Assembly (NCBI GenBank): GCA_025060695.1
Contig: JANXBH010000006.1
Span: 1-64,000, forward strand
DNA: 64,000 nucleotides
DNA from: Caldifarciminota bacterium
Lineage (GTDB): Bacteria > Hydrothermota > Hydrothermia > LBFQ01 > DSFT01
Direction of reading: 5' to 3'
A model generated the notes under the pieces. The model searched no databases, was not told the DNA's origin, and was given only the letters and a program-made list of their open reading frames with translations. A program made the position numbers and the translations under genes. Numbering within the stretch: position 1 is the first letter of the stretch; the number at the start of each line of letters is the position of its first letter. Positions 1 through 17,391 of this stretch are shown piece by piece.

Positions 1-1586
1 TAGGGTTTTTCGGAAAAAGAGATGAACAAAAGCTATCAATAATAAAAGACATATTTGGCATAGATATAAAGGACGCAAAAATAAATATCATAGCATACGG
101 AGAAGATTATAGTGTTTCATATGGATTACTGGATATATACAAGCTAAAGATTGAAGATTTAGGCAATACTATAATTTATGAAAGTGAAGATGAAGATTTT
201 TTAAACTATTGTAACAGAGTAATTATGTATATTTCTTCAAAGGAAAAAAATCTGATTAGTAAAATAGAAGAATATGCAAAAAAATCTTCTGTAATTATCA
301 TAGGAGAAGCTTTGGATAATGAAGTGATAAGCAGAATAGAAAAAGAAATTTTACCTAAGTTTCCGAATTTAGAGATAAAGTTCTTTTCAGTGAAAGAAAG
401 AGATATTGATAAAATGTTATACAAGGCTTGGTTATATGATATCAGGGATGAATTGTTAGGTAAAGAGATTATTTTAGAGAAAAATAGTTTTATAGAATAT
501 ACCTATCCTAAGATAGGTTCAAATAAACTCTATAAATTTGGTTATACTTCCAAAACTATTGGAAAGCATAGTGACCTTGTTTATTCAGTTTCATTTAGTC
601 CTGATGGAAAATACTTGGCTAGTGGAAGTGGTGATAACACTATCAAAATCTGGTCTGTAGATAGTTGGAAAGAAATTATTACTCTCAAAGGACATAGTGA
701 CAATGTTTATTCAGTTTCATTTAGTCCTGATGGAAAATATTTAGCTAGTGGAAGTTATGATAAAACTGTCAAAATCTGGTTTATTGATCTATCCTCTTTT
801 GAAAAAAATTTACCAGAAATGTTAAAAGACTTAAAAGATATAGTCCTTTTATCTTCTTTAGAGAAAATAGTAGGAAAAGATATTCAAAATAAAAAAGCTA
901 TTGTATTTTTTGGAGAATTCAGCAGTGGAAAAACAACTATCATAAATAATCTCTTTGAACTTAACTTACCTGTTGACATACTACCCTCAACAGCAGTTCC
1001 TACTATTATAACTCACGGACAATCAAAAAAGGTCTATTTAATAGATTCTCTCTTTAATCTAGAAGAAGCAAATGAAGAAAAATTATCAAAAGTATCTCAT
1101 CAAGACAAAAAATATGCAAGTAAATATCTTTACAAGATTATTCTCTTAGATATGCCAGTATTAAAAGACTATATTATCATTGACACTCCTGGATTTTCAG
1201 CAGATAGTTTTGATTATGAAACAGCAATAAATATCTTAAAACTTGCAGATAAATTAGTATATGTAATAGATGCAGATACTGGTTCAATCACAAAAGAAGG
1301 TCTAGAAATATTAAAGTCTCAAAAAAATTTAGATTGCGTAGTAATTTTGAACAAGATTGATAAGAAAAAGGAAGATTTTGAAAAAATAGCACAGTATAAC
1401 AAGGAAATATTAAAAAATAACGGAATAAATGCTGAAATAGAACTTTTTAGTTCATTCGCAGATGAAAAACTAATTAGAAACTGGAAAATTTCAATCATGT
1501 CTGAACTATTGAAGAAAAGCAAAAATAGTAGGTTTGCAGAGCATTATAAAAAGATATACACTGATCATAGAGAGTTTTTCTTATAG
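1..1586 (+). CDS. WD40-repeat/dynamin-like GTPase chimera (5' end outside window)
   Basis: The frame is open from base 3 through 1586, so the gene begins before the window; the ATG at 225 is internal. The N-terminal part (1-560) has no domain I recognise, although the stretch around 285-420 (SSVIIIGE followed by helices) faintly recalls an ASKHA/Hsp70 C-terminus. Two WD40 blades follow (about 567-653 and 693-780), each with SPDGKYLASGS and KIW motifs. A GTPase domain comes next: P-loop GEFSSGKTT near 911, DTPG near 1181, NKID near 1349. This order of motifs fits the dynamin/GTPase superfamily. Two blades cannot close a propeller alone. The repeats are about 91% identical in DNA with a 126-bp period, so the duplication is recent. 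Function unknown; a membrane or stress role is only a guess. Confidence 0.8.
   Translation, partial: GFFGKRDEQKLSIIKDIFGIDIKDAKINIIAYGEDYSVSYGLLDIYKLKIEDLGNTIIYESEDEDFLNYCNRVIMYISSKEKNLISKIEEYAKKSSVIIIGEALDNEVISRIEKEILPKFPNLEIKFFSVKERDIDKMLYKAWLYDIRDELLGKEIILEKNSFIEYTYPKIGSNKLYKFGYTSKTIGKHSDLVYSVSFSPDGKYLASGSGDNTIKIWSVDSWKEIITLKGHSDNVYSVSFSPDGKYLASGSYDKTVKIWFIDLSSFEKNLPEMLKDLKDIVLLSSLEKIVGKDIQNKKAIVFFGEFSSGKTTIINNLFELNLPVDILPSTAVPTIITHGQSKKVYLIDSLFNLEEANEEKLSKVSHQDKKYASKYLYKIILLDMPVLKDYIIIDTPGFSADSFDYETAINILKLADKLVYVIDADTGSITKEGLEILKSQKNLDCVVILNKIDKKKEDFEKIAQYNKEILKNNGINAEIELFSSFADEKLIRNWKISIMSELLKKSKNSRFAEHYKKIYTDHREFFL
567..780 (+). repeat. 126-bp-period tandem duplication encoding two WD40 blades
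   Basis: The segments 567-653 and 693-780 differ at about 8 of 88 positions and are separated by exactly 42 codons from start to start. The duplication keeps the reading frame. Such near-identical WD40 blades usually expand and contract by recombination. Confidence 0.85.
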
Positions 1587-2003: not shown

Positions 2004-3995
2004 ATGATACTTTTTATACATTTTATACCAGAAAAAGTGTTAAACCATAACTATATCCTTTCCTATATCTGGCCTGATGTAGAGTATAAGACTTTTGATG
2101 TGATAAAATATGACTATTTTTTGTGGATAGATAGTATAAAGAATGCACAAAACCTAAGACCTATTCTAAGTGCATATAATAAAATTACATTTAAAACTAT
2201 TGAACCTACAGACAGCATATATTTACACTTTATTAGAGGAAATTACGTAGTTCCATATTGGATAGATACAGTAAAAAATAACCTTATAATAGATTCAGTT
2301 AGGCTAATTTATAACAACAATACATATAGTCCGCAATACTATACTCCAGGTGATACACTTATTATAGTAAAATTTAACTTTCAAATTCCACAAGGACAAA
2401 AATTTAGAGTTGATATATACTATCGTGGAACAGTAAATAGAACAGGTTCATCCTTTGGAGGAGGCTTAGACTTAAAGCAAAATAATATAATATATGCGGA
2501 TAATGAGCCTTTTGGACTTAGAAGGTGGCTTCCAAGTTTTGATTTACCCTACGAAAAGGTGGATACCGTGGAAGCAAGAATAAAAGTTAAACTTGGTTGG
2601 AAAACAGTTGCAAATGGAATTCGTATTGACAGTACAATTGAAAATAACTGGATAACTTACTATTATAAAACCAAATATCCAATAGCACCATATTTGATTG
2701 TTTTTGCTTCTTCAAAGGACTTTAATATTATTACTCAAAATTGGAATTACAATAATATAACTATGCCTATTTATCATTATGTTAAAATTGGAAATAATGC
2801 ACCATCTTTATATTTACCGAATATGCTAACGATATTTTCTAATAGATTTGACATAGTCTATCCATTTTATGAAGAAAAGTATGGAGAGGTTGAAATATTT
2901 GAAGGTTTCTTTGGAGGTGCTATGGAAGACCAGACTAACACATTTACAAAAGTTACAAATAATGAAGTTTTGAGTGCACACGAGCTTGCACACCATTGGT
3001 GGGGTAATATGGTTACTTGTGCAACATTTAAGGATATATTTATAAATGAAGGTTTAACTACTTATTCTGAAGCGGTTTACGATGAAATAGCATTAGGTTA
3101 TGGAGATTTTGGAAATTGTAGAGGTTATATGGGGCAAATTAAATGCGATATAAATAGATACTTTCAATATGGAGATCCAAATAAACCAATATACAATCCG
3201 GGCCCAAGACTATCAGATGTATTCGATGGAGCAATAACTTATAGTAAAGCATCAGCCGTCATGCATAGTTTAAGATTACTTTTTAGATATATCTATAATG
3301 ATAGTGCTATCGGCGACCAAAAATTTTTTCAAGCTTTTAAATACTTTGGAAATAAGAGAAAATTTTCATATGCAAGAGTTAAAGATTTTGAAGACGATAT
3401 AAAAGAATTTTTAGATTTAGAAAACAAGGATAGTACTATTGGTTATTTCTTTAAACAATGGATATTTAATCCCGGACATCCAAAATTTAAATTCATCTTA
3501 TCAAGAAACTTCAATGGCTCAAATTATGACCTCATTATAAATCTTACCCAAAACCAACCTTCAAACTGGTCAAAATTTAAAATTCCAAGATACCCAATAA
3601 GAATAGTGTTTTCAGATAATACTCAAATTGATACTATAATACATATAGATTCATTACAAGCTCAGACATATAGCTTTAATTTTACAAAACAACCGATAAA
3701 TCTCGTTCCTGACCCAAACAATAATTATATTGATGAATTTACAGTCTCAGAAATAGACGAAATTAGCGAAGAATATCTTTATATAAAATTTATTGGCAAA
3801 AGGCTTATTTTAAATATCCCGAGGTCCGATAATTATAGTATAAGAATTTATAGAGTAGATGGTGGTATAACATATGAAAATTCTGGATTTTTCAACAAAG
3901 GAAAGTATGAAATGAATCTAAATCTTAAATCAGGTATATATATTGTAAAAATTAGTGGGGCATTAAGCTATAAGACAAAAATTGCTATTAAGTAA
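2004..3995 (+). CDS. M1-family metallopeptidase with C-terminal sorting-type domain
   Basis: This is a 663-residue zinc aminopeptidase-like protein. It has the exopeptidase motif GAMED near residue 305, the zinc motif HELAHHWWG near 326 (HExxH) and the third ligand Glu in NEGL near 349. The last 70 or so residues form a beta-rich domain (YIKFIGKRLIL, then SIRIYRVDGG, ending SGIYIVKIS) like the type-A sorting tails of FCB bacteria, so export to the surface is likely. The N-terminus is MILFIHFIPEK, a short uncharged hydrophobic stretch rather than a normal signal peptide. The start is fixed by the promoter hexamer at 1992-1997. The 3' end overlaps the convergent cdsA by 8 bp. Confidence 0.9.
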   Translation: MILFIHFIPEKVLNHNYILSYIWPDVEYKTFDVIKYDYFLWIDSIKNAQNLRPILSAYNKITFKTIEPTDSIYLHFIRGNYVVPYWIDTVKNNLIIDSVRLIYNNNTYSPQYYTPGDTLIIVKFNFQIPQGQKFRVDIYYRGTVNRTGSSFGGGLDLKQNNIIYADNEPFGLRRWLPSFDLPYEKVDTVEARIKVKLGWKTVANGIRIDSTIENNWITYYYKTKYPIAPYLIVFASSKDFNIITQNWNYNNITMPIYHYVKIGNNAPSLYLPNMLTIFSNRFDIVYPFYEEKYGEVEIFEGFFGGAMEDQTNTFTKVTNNEVLSAHELAHHWWGNMVTCATFKDIFINEGLTTYSEAVYDEIALGYGDFGNCRGYMGQIKCDINRYFQYGDPNKPIYNPGPRLSDVFDGAITYSKASAVMHSLRLLFRYIYNDSAIGDQKFFQAFKYFGNKRKFSYARVKDFEDDIKEFLDLENKDSTIGYFFKQWIFNPGHPKFKFILSRNFNGSNYDLIINLTQNQPSNWSKFKIPRYPIRIVFSDNTQIDTIIHIDSLQAQTYSFNFTKQPINLVPDPNNNYIDEFTVSEIDEISEEYLYIKFIGKRLILNIPRSDNYSIRIYRVDGGITYENSGFFNKGKYEMNLNLKSGIYIVKISGALSYKTKIAIK

Positions 3996-4788
3996 AAACA
4001 GAGATTAAAATAAAGTAAACAGGTATATTTACTATTAGGCTATCTACTCTATCTAAAACACCACCATGACCTAAAAGGAAAATACCAGAATCTTTTACTT
4101 TTGCTTCCCTTTTAATTACAGATTCTATTAAATCACCAAGTGTCCCAGTAATGGATAAAATAGCAGAAAAAATGGCATATTTTATTAATGGAAACTTATA
4201 GACATGTGCATAGGCTATTCCAAAAATTATGCAAAATACTAAACCTCCAATAAAGCCCTCCCATGTTTTATTTGGACTAATAATAGGAGCAAGCTTCTTT
4301 CTTCCAAAGAACCTACCAATGAAAAATGCAAAAATGTCATTTATCCAAGTAATGAATACCACAAAGAGAACATATTCTAAACCCATATTTCTTAGGTTTA
4401 CCAAAAGTGCAGATGGAATTGAAAGATATAAAAATCCATAAATAGATATTGCACCATCTTCCATACCCCTTCCAGAATTATAATAAATTGGAATAGAGAG
4501 CAAAAAGAGTAAAAATAGAACAAGAAAAACTACCAATGTTGTTTCTATAAAGTTCAAATTGGATGCAAAGTAAGTTAAGATAATTGATGCAACTATAGTT
4601 TGGAATTTAAATGGTCTAAAACCCATATTTTTTACTAAATTAAAATATTCAACTAAACCTAAAGTGGCAACTACTATAACTAATAGTTTAAATGGTATTC
4701 CACCAAGTATTAAAAAAAATAAAAAACCAACTACTCCTACAAAACCTGAGATTACTCTTAAGAATAGGTTTTTTTGAAAAGTTTCCAA
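3988..4788 (-). CDS. cdsA: phosphatidate cytidylyltransferase
   Basis: This integral membrane enzyme makes CDP-diacylglycerol from phosphatidate and CTP, the branch point of phospholipid synthesis. The 266-residue product has several membrane helices. It carries the family signature near its C-terminus: SVIKREAKVKDSG, then LLGHGGVLDRVDS with the expected HGGxxDRxD. The predicted start is TTG 4788, inside the end of the upstream oxidoreductase gene (31-bp overlap). It is therefore the last gene of the tRNA-Leu-ndk-oxidoreductase-cdsA unit and is probably translationally coupled. Confidence 0.93.
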   Translation of the reverse strand: METFQKNLFLRVISGFVGVVGFLFFLILGGIPFKLLVIVVATLGLVEYFNLVKNMGFRPFKFQTIVASIILTYFASNLNFIETTLVVFLVLFLLFLLSIPIYYNSGRGMEDGAISIYGFLYLSIPSALLVNLRNMGLEYVLFVVFITWINDIFAFFIGRFFGRKKLAPIISPNKTWEGFIGGLVFCIIFGIAYAHVYKFPLIKYAIFSAILSITGTLGDLIESVIKREAKVKDSGIFLLGHGGVLDRVDSLIVNIPVYFILISVFT

Positions 4789-5579
4789 GTTTCTCTCCAG
4801 TCCTTAGTTGAAAGTCCATATCTTTTTGCAAGTTCATAAAATTCCCTTGCAGAGGATGTTATAAAAAATGGTATATTTTTACTATGAGCAGAAATCCTTG
4901 CATATTCAATATCTTTTGCCATTAATTCAGTAGTAAAAGATAGTTCTACTTCTTTATCATAATATTTTCCATATCTTACTGCCATATCTATAATTGGTCT
5001 ATCTCCTTGAATTTCATAAATTTCATTTTCAATAGAAAACTCCTTTATGAATGTATTAAATTCCAAAGATAAGACATAAAAAACACCATGTATAAAATTC
5101 GATGCAAGTTTTATGGCACTTGCTTTTACACTGTCGTTTACAAAATAAACTTTGCCAATATACTCTAAAAAATTCAAATTATATCTTTGATAAAAGTCTT
5201 CACTTTCACCGAAGACTATTCTTGCCCTTGCAGTTTCTATATCCTTCGGTCCACCGAAAATTGGACTAGAGACATAGCTTTTGTATTTTTCCTTTATTTC
5301 CTCTACAAAAACTGGATGAAGAGTTGAAAAATCAATTATTATCTTTTGGTCCGGTATGGATTTTATAATATCACTTACCGCTTTAGTATCCGATAAAACA
5401 ATAAGAATAATATCAGTATTTTTTACAAAGTCGTCTATGTTATAAAACAAGTTTGCTTTCTCTCTAAATTCTTCCAGTTTTTCTTTACTTCTATTGTATA
5501 AATTCAATTTTAGTCCTTTACTTATTAGATTTAATGATATAGCTCTTCCCATTCTTCCAAGACCAATAAGTCCAAGCAT
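4758..5579 (-). CDS. NAD(P)-binding beta-hydroxyacid dehydrogenase-like protein
   Basis: The N-terminus MLGLIGLGRMGRAISLNL is the Rossmann GxGxMG fingerprint of the 6-phosphogluconate/3-hydroxyisobutyrate dehydrogenase family. A conserved SSPIFGGP follows near residue 100 (family G-G-P substrate motif), and SVKASAIKLASNF holds the expected catalytic-type lysine (KxxxN). At 273 residues it is slightly short. The substrate cannot be told from sequence; glyoxylate or succinic-semialdehyde reductase-like activity is possible. It starts 2 nt after the ndk stop codon. Confidence 0.8.
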   Translation of the reverse strand: MLGLIGLGRMGRAISLNLISKGLKLNLYNRSKEKLEEFREKANLFYNIDDFVKNTDIILIVLSDTKAVSDIIKSIPDQKIIIDFSTLHPVFVEEIKEKYKSYVSSPIFGGPKDIETARARIVFGESEDFYQRYNLNFLEYIGKVYFVNDSVKASAIKLASNFIHGVFYVLSLEFNTFIKEFSIENEIYEIQGDRPIIDMAVRYGKYYDKEVELSFTTELMAKDIEYARISAHSKNIPFFITSSAREFYELAKRYGLSTKDWRETWKLFKKTYS

Positions 5580-5581
5580 AT

Positions 5582-5980
5582 TTAATCTTCAAAGAAAAAC
5601 TTCAATTCCCTAATAGCATTTTCTATTGTATCTGAAGCATGAACCACATTCTTTGTAATACTTTCTCCAAATAAATTTCTAATAGTTCCTTCCCTTGCTT
5701 TTTTAGGTTCGGTTTCCCCTATAAAATCTCTAATTTTTTTAACGATATCCTCTCCTTCTATTCTAATGCCTACTACACTATCACTTGTTATAAAATCTAT
5801 TAGTTCGCTAAAAAATGGTTTTTCTTTGTGAACTTCATAAAATTTTTCAGCCTCTTCCCTTGAAAATCTTTTCATTTTAATACCTGTAATTTCAAATCCA
5901 TTTTCTTCTAATATACTAATAATTTTTCCTATAATTCTTTTTTTTACTGCGTCTGGTTTTATCATTAAAAGGGTTTTCAT
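5582..5980 (-). CDS. ndk: nucleoside diphosphate kinase
   Basis: The enzyme transfers the gamma phosphate from ATP to NDPs. The 132-residue product has LLMIKPDAVKKR at the N-terminus and the phosphohistidine motif NVVHASDTIENA near residue 112. Its ATG (5980-5978) begins only 2 nt after the discriminator base of tRNA-Leu on the same strand, and no ribosome binding site is possible there. The mRNA is therefore probably made by tRNA 3' processing and is essentially leaderless. Two downstream genes follow closely. Confidence 0.96.
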   Translation of the reverse strand: MKTLLMIKPDAVKKRIIGKIISILEENGFEITGIKMKRFSREEAEKFYEVHKEKPFFSELIDFITSDSVVGIRIEGEDIVKKIRDFIGETEPKKAREGTIRNLFGESITKNVVHASDTIENAIRELKFFFED

Positions 5981-5982
5981 AG

Positions 5983-6066
5983 TGCGGGAGGAGGGAGTTG
6001 AACCCTCACGCCCTTTCGGGCACTAGACCCTCAATCTAGCGCGTCTGCCAATTCCGCCACTCCCGC
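5983..6066 (-). tRNA. tRNA-Leu (anticodon GAG)
   Basis: Read on the minus strand the acceptor stem GCGGGAG pairs with CTCCCGC. The anticodon stem CTAGA/TCTAG encloses loop TTGAGGG, giving anticodon GAG. A long variable arm (TGCCCGAAAGGGC) marks a class II tRNA, and the T arm is GAGGG-TTCAACT-CCCTC. The discriminator is A at 5983. CCA is not encoded; the next bases are CT and then the ndk ATG. Confidence 0.95.
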
Positions 6067-6068
6067 AT

Positions 6069-6086
6069 ACTTTAAAATTTTAAAGT
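6069..6086. promoter_or_regulatory. 18-bp palindromic bidirectional promoter (tRNA-Leu operon / broken secreted gene)
   Basis: ACTTTAAAATTTTAAAGT is a perfect palindrome. It presents TAAAAT on the plus strand (6073-6078) and on the minus strand (6082-6077), so the two -10 hexamers overlap. On the minus strand the hexamer lies 10 nt before the tRNA-Leu 5' end at 6066. On the plus strand the gene it should serve has lost its start region. Confidence 0.65.
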
Positions 6087-17060: not shown

Positions 17061-17132
17061 GGGCCCGTAGCTCAATGGCAGAGCAGCGGACTCATAATCC
17101 GTGGGTTGTAGGTTCGAGTCCTACCGGGCCCA
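17061..17132 (+). tRNA. tRNA with anticodon CAT (Met elongator or Ile2)
   Basis: Acceptor stem GGGCCCG/CGGGCCC is all G+C. Anticodon stem GCGGA/TCCGT encloses loop CTCATAA. The T arm is GTAGG-TTCGAGT-CCTAC and the discriminator is A at 17132. It lacks initiator features (it has a paired 1:72 G-C and no GGG/CCC anticodon stem), so it is elongator Met or tRNA-Ile2, to be lysidinylated. CCA is not encoded. An ATG follows after one base. Confidence 0.93.
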
Positions 17133-17133
17133 T

Positions 17134-17391
17134 ATGGTCTGGCTTGTAGGGATGTTAATCCTTGAAAAAGTTAATAATAAGATTGCAGATGGTTATCATA
17201 GCTTAGAGATAAGAGGAATTTCTAAGGGTAATTACGTAGCAAATGCCATCATGGGAAATATAAACTATAATACATGTGAAATACCTTTATTAAACTTTAA
17301 ATTTCAGGTTGATGGTTTAATAAAAGAGTGTATATATAAACCTACGAAAAATTTAAATGAGTTCAAGATAGTAATATACTATAAGAAGTGA
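17134..17391 (+). CDS. hypothetical protein, 85 aa, directly after a tRNA
   Basis: I do not recognise this protein. The ATG at 17134 is one base after the tRNA discriminator, so tRNA 3' processing would leave a 1-nt leader. The N-terminus MVWLVGMLILEKVNN is a short hydrophobic leader without n-region charge. The remainder has beta-strand character (SLEIRGISKGNY, LLNFKFQVDGLI, EFKIVIYYKK), possibly a small periplasmic beta protein. The aminotransferase starts 7 nt after its stop. Confidence 0.6.
   Translation: MVWLVGMLILEKVNNKIADGYHSLEIRGISKGNYVANAIMGNINYNTCEIPLLNFKFQVDGLIKECIYKPTKNLNEFKIVIYYKK

Follow-up and report, generated by a model that had tools for sequence, protein, structure and literature searches.

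In animal mitochondria, tRNA genes lie directly 5' of protein genes, and the RNase Z (ELAC)-assisted excision of tRNAs from one long polycistronic transcript creates the 5' ends of the mRNAs, giving near-leaderless messages that include non-AUG starts. In E. coli, the thrT-tufB unit combines a tRNA and a protein gene in one transcript, with the latter keeping a separate leader and Shine-Dalgarno (SD) sequence. Bacterial leaderless genes, known from Actinobacteria and Deinococcus-Thermus (PMC3160421) and from mycobacteria (PMC4633059), have their 5' end at or near the start codon, and many of them show a TA-type -10 box just before it. In Propionibacterium acnes, the part of the published account considered here reports no obvious RNase Z, endonucleolytic processing sites near most tRNA 3' ends, including that of one tRNA without an encoded CCA, and many leaderless mRNAs (PMC3848588).

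The locus presented here lies in a 64,000-nt stretch of a Caldifarciminota bacterium contig (the window), where the gene for nucleoside diphosphate kinase, ndk, begins 2 nt past a tRNA-Leu gene. As in mitochondria, tRNAs of this genome stand directly 5' of protein genes, the messages are predicted to be near-leaderless with non-AUG starts included, and the sequence suggests that tRNA excision creates their 5' ends. Unlike the organelles, the genome is a bacterial chromosome of about 1.5 Mb with an intact 16S anti-SD, most tRNA units have their own promoter-like box, and canonical RNase Z was not found. The -10 boxes just before the start codons of many genes resemble those of bacterial leaderless genes, and their 5' ends are predicted likewise at or near the start codon. 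In contrast to leaderless genes, the 5' end at the junctions would stem from RNA processing and not from transcription initiation, and TTG, CTG, and ATA starts occur together with leaders of 1–9 nt. As in thrT-tufB, tRNA and protein gene would share a transcript, but here the spacing is 0–9 nt and SD is absent. The likeness to P. acnes extends to the lack of an obvious RNase Z, the endonucleolytic sites near tRNA 3' ends (here predicted), and leaderless expression (here leaderless-type promoters), whereas the part of that account considered describes no tRNA-abutting protein genes (PMC3848588). No published case of bacterial tRNA punctuation was found among open-licence papers. The features of the window are as follows.

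6077 to 6082, minus strand: -10-like hexamer TAAAAT inside the promoter-like box TTTAAAATT (6084-6076), 5' of tRNA-Leu
5983 to 6066, minus strand: tRNA-Leu(GAG), from G1 to discriminator A73, CCA not encoded (Rfam, ARAGORN)
5981 to 5982, minus strand: CU spacer of 2 nt; in the congeneric genome G001 the spacer is 1 nt, U
5582 to 5980, minus strand: ndk, nucleoside diphosphate kinase, ATG start, Pfam NDK from residue 2
4758 to 5579, minus strand: NAD-binding oxidoreductase of the 3-hydroxyisobutyrate dehydrogenase type, starting 2 nt past the ndk stop, presumed second cistron
3988 to 4788, minus strand: cdsA-like cytidylyltransferase, overlapping the oxidoreductase gene, presumed last cistron
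17061 to 17132, plus strand: tRNA(CAT), named by its anticodon, with discriminator A at 17132; a second junction of this kind in the window
17134 to 17391, plus strand: 85-aa ORF, family unassigned, ATG at 17134, beginning 1 nt past tRNA(CAT)

On the minus strand, G1 of tRNA-Leu(GAG) is at 6066, the acceptor stem has 7 bp, and the discriminator A is at 5983. The Rfam model matches exactly this interval (54 bits), and ARAGORN places the end one base further, at 5982. The discriminator is followed by C5982-T5981 and then by the ndk ATG at 5980-5978. The ndk start codon is correctly placed, since the alignment to Pfam NDK (PF00334, 170 bits) begins at residue 2. The geometry given in the preliminary description, with the tRNA ending at 5983, the ATG at 5980, and 2 nt between them, is confirmed. 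Its statement that no promoter or ribosome binding site separates the two genes is also borne out, as the gap has no encoded CCA, no SD, and no -10-like hexamer. Moreover, the only box of the TTTAAAATT type on the minus strand between 5500 and 6200 is the one upstream of tRNA-Leu, and the sequence thus supports, as the simplest option, the earlier proposal that ndk would be read from the tRNA promoter. The orthologue of the 85-aa ORF in G001 also lies behind tRNA(CAT), with 58% identity over residues 1–85. Elsewhere in the window, the ORF at 225-1586 (plus strand) apparently contains WD40-like repeats and a GTPase-like segment, as judged from inspection of its translation.

The genome was covered by its 42 tRNA loci, all of them read, together with 464 kb of sampled sequence, about 31% of the whole. 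Like the other genomes compared, it is metagenome-assembled and incomplete (95% complete), and start codons were set by ORF and homology. The ORF that follows the second tRNA-Met is supported by its G001 orthologue, confirmed with blastp. Among the 42 tRNA genes, 7 precede another tRNA and 35 are terminal. Behind 22 of the 35 terminal tRNAs, an ORF of 45 aa or more, starting with ATG, GTG, or TTG, begins within 0–9 nt, while only 2 starts fall at 10–19 nt and none at 20–59 nt. Four further junctions have a noncanonical start, namely CTG behind the Tyr, His, and Leu-TAG tRNAs and ATA behind Val-TAC. The genome search for other tRNA-ATG junctions of 0–3 nt proposed in the preliminary description, when widened to 0–9 nt and to further start codons, yields a same-strand ORF at 0–9 nt behind 26 of 35 terminal tRNAs, about three quarters, with ndk being one of them. 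At random positions the rate is 1.1% when the 5'-most start is used and 5.4% for any start, and the corresponding binomial probabilities of 22/35 are 2e-34 and 1e-19. Because of this frequency, and because the Leu/ndk pair is conserved in the congeneric genome, the abutment is not due to chance.

The predicted leader at the junctions is 0–9 nt, usually 1–4 nt (2 nt for ndk), and 5–9 nt at five of them. The 0-nt junctions start with TTG, never with ATG. In the two congeneric genomes together, a strict -10 box 5–11 nt before the start occurs at 0 of 53 junctions, and no SD 5-mer is present. The tRNAs themselves are uniform at their 3' ends: encoded CCA after the discriminator is missing in 41 of 42, and in 39 of 42 the next base is a pyrimidine, C or T. 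Upstream, 30 of the 42 tRNA genes have a TTTAWAMT box at a distance of no more than 45 nt. No other structured RNAs adjoining ORFs were seen, the scanned stretches holding tRNAs and 16S only.

Most of the junction ORFs have Pfam matches, many of which begin near residue 1. Further Pfam-matched junction genes are L19, OmpH, and NifU_N.

L31: match from residue 1
HMGL-like: match from residue 2, TTG start
HAD: match from residue 2–4, CTG start
L33: match from residue 3
Ham1/RdgB: match from residue 3, CTG start
PRPP synthetase: match from residue 4
Malate/lactate dehydrogenase: match from residue 4
GDC-P: match from residue 5
Glycosyltransferase 2 (GT2): match from residue 5, ATA start

Ribosomal proteins are encoded by some of the 26 downstream genes, and others specify products as different as an O-antigen ligase-like protein and a subtilase. 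Since the linked genes have no common theme, and unrelated genes adjoin at least 25 further tRNAs in the same way, the earlier suggestion that leucine tRNA supply is tied to NTP and phospholipid synthesis finds no support. Start codons at the junctions are 12 ATG, 10 TTG, 3 CTG, and 1 ATA, whereas those behind leaderless-type promoters are 98 ATG, 16 GTG, and 15 TTG. Junction starts are thus weaker (14/26 versus 31/129 non-ATG, P=0.004), although CTG and ATA were admitted at junctions only and the fair part of the comparison is ATG against TTG. It may be speculated that weak starts damp the protein output of strong tRNA promoters. In the GT2 gene behind tRNA-Val(TAC) (L126:17763-18425, plus strand), the apparent ATA start lies in the context IKYIIIVPTYNE, and G001 also has ATA at the corresponding position (L143). 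In both congeneric genomes, no ATG, GTG, or TTG is close enough to preserve the conserved N-terminus of this protein.

The arrangement is conserved within the genus. By the canonical-start criterion, the nearest relative, G001, has 22 of 37 junctions, and 22 tRNA-ORF pairs with the same tRNA are common to the two genomes, 20 of which align from residue 1–3. The ndk product is 81% identical to its G001 orthologue over residues 1–132, and the start of the Leu-TAG/HAD pair is CTG in one congeneric genome and ATG in the other. The sister genus (G003), with a similar genome size, shows only 4 of 38, and a partial sample of the order-mate G010 shows 10 of 25. Small samples of the class members G016 and G021 gave few junctions, and CCA is often encoded there. 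A strict pattern from tRNA end to ATG was counted over 133 genomes of the phylum; it takes ATG only, its matches are not all tRNAs, and its reversed control gives mostly 0–1. It has 9 and 15 matches in the two congeneric genomes, the highest counts among close relatives, and roughly 3 elsewhere. The distant phylum members G061, G110, and G129 have 9–10 matches each, as pattern counts only. A looser pattern, GTTCRANYCN{12,16}ATG, was dropped as too noisy across relatives.

Leaderless-type starts are common in this genome. TA[AT]AAT stands just 5' of the start codon in 116 of 427 genes (27%) of the 464-kb sample, with a peak 6–9 nt upstream, and in 1.6% of internal ATG controls. SD motifs occur too and the 16S anti-SD is intact, so leaderless and SD modes coexist. 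The -10 box ending about 6–9 nt before the start is missing at the tRNA-abutting genes of the genus, ndk included. In contrast, all nine readable order-mates, G005 included, carry a separate -10 hexamer for ndk, which ends 7–9 nt before the ATG. Within the class, four genomes from a different family carry the ndk box 6–8 nt ahead of the start codon, and elsewhere most genomes show SD or neither signal. Because the order-mates carry their own ndk -10 box, ndk was most simply leaderless before a tRNA took over the place of the promoter. The same comparison suggests, again as the simplest course, that the takeover kept the ndk start codon at the prospective 5' end.

Two tRNAs of the window's genome, tRNA-Gly(CCC) (L132:4496-4567, minus strand) and tRNA-Arg(CCG) (L135:624-696, plus strand), each have an ORF with its own leaderless-type promoter no more than about 30 nt downstream. 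This order of tRNA, leaderless-type promoter, and ORF is found at two tRNAs per congeneric genome, Gly-CCC and Arg-CCG in both, and at seven tRNAs of the sister genus, and is plausibly an intermediate state. As a separate observation, in the sample of the same genome (window plus L121-L140), 26 of 85 strict leaderless-type promoters (CTTTAAAATT before the start) are preceded within 40 nt by AATTTTAAAG, an inverted copy of the box, compared with 0.6% of random positions. Paired CTTTAAAATT/AATTTTAAAG elements are possibly bidirectional promoters.

Taken with the geometry and conservation of the junctions, their frequency, the lack of other start signals, the widespread leaderless-type promoters, and the ndk promoter of the order-mates make it likely that a cut after the discriminator frees a near-leaderless mRNA, and that Leu/ndk is one case of a genome-wide layout. 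RNA polymerase would initiate at the -10 box a few nt 5' of the tRNA and continue into the abutting ORF. RNase P would produce the tRNA 5' end, and an endonuclease would cut at or beside the discriminator. CCA, not being encoded, would be added after the cut. The downstream product would be an mRNA with a leader of 0–9 nt, translated by the leaderless route that the organism appears to use widely. In the case of ndk, the tRNA would substitute for the leaderless-type promoter retained by the rest of the order. Co-transcription, the cut, and translation of its product are the steps that we infer. As a counterpoint, mycobacterial leaderless initiation needs RTG at the extreme 5' end (PMC4633059), unlike the leaders of 5–9 nt at five junctions and the TTG, CTG, and ATA starts at 14 of 26. 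The preliminary description had proposed a near-leaderless message cut out by RNase Z. A near-leaderless message after cleavage at the tRNA 3' end fits the sequence, given the widespread leaderless-type starts, but RNase Z as the enzyme finds no support.

RNase Z is the standard enzyme for tRNAs without CCA, and a cut past the discriminator by RNase Z itself, leaving CU-AUG, would be a special case of the cleavage proposed above. The unencoded CCA and the pyrimidine after the discriminator agree with this enzyme. In the window's genome, however, the best match to the RNase Z model TIGR02651 scores 36.7 bits against a cut-off of 293, and the Thermotoga-type model TIGR02650 has no match. The cut-off is passed by none of 28 class genomes, that is, neither by this one nor by 27 relatives, while 14 of 14 control genomes match the model. 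The protein behind the 36.7-bit match, a 318-aa metallo-hydrolase, was rejected, its best PDB relatives being of the PqsE/thioesterase type. Only one other protein, a UPF0173-type hydrolase, is above the cut-off of PF12706, and it was rejected as well. RNase E/G gave a weak partial match only and was also set aside. In other families of the class, shorter RNase Z-like proteins match the model at about residues 2–152 and 200–300 with 84–130 bits. RNase Z is thus an unlikely cutter here, although a highly divergent or unassembled form may exist. RNase Z-type enzymes leave a 5' phosphate. Leaderless translation requires such a phosphate and in some cases is lowered by a longer distance from the 5' end (PMC9031893).

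If no endonuclease cuts, as the genome searches that found none would allow, the tRNA 3' end would be matured by exonucleases. Exonucleolytic trimming of tRNA 3' ends occurs in some bacteria, and each transcript would then yield either tRNA or mRNA, with the ORF being translated from the uncut tRNA-mRNA precursor. A folded tRNA 1–3 nt before the AUG would obstruct the mRNA path of the ribosome, 26 genes would each compete with their own tRNA for every transcript, and ndk of the order-mates is made from a leaderless-type promoter, all of which make this course improbable. We give similarly little credence to the spacing being genome compaction without mechanistic meaning, with weak expression of the ORFs by readthrough. 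The weaker junction starts agree with it, but core genes are involved (L19, L31, L33, ndk, and PRPP synthetase), the sister genus of similar genome size has so few junctions, and 0–9 nt is sharply favored over 10–59 nt (22 versus 2). A separate promoter within the tRNA gene giving a primary leaderless transcript, which had been named beforehand as the finding that would speak against processing, is highly improbable even in a genome where leaderless-type promoters are common, because the 3' end of the tRNA is under constraint and rich in G and C, and none of the 53 junctions has a rightly placed strict -10 box.

With processing by an endonuclease as the preferred reading, it can tentatively be proposed that this bacterial lineage uses tRNAs as genome-wide makers of mRNA 5' ends without canonical RNase Z, through another endonuclease, and that translation may initiate at AUG, UUG, CUG, and even AUA. 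If this is true, it points to a new endonuclease acting on tRNA 3' ends in a group of bacteria that yielded no canonical RNase Z. Moreover, tRNA punctuation would not be confined to organelles and could also evolve on a bacterial chromosome after leaderless translation has become common, with the intermediates of tRNA, leaderless promoter, and ORF persisting in relatives. One promoter would then set both tRNA and protein output for ribosomal proteins and core metabolism.
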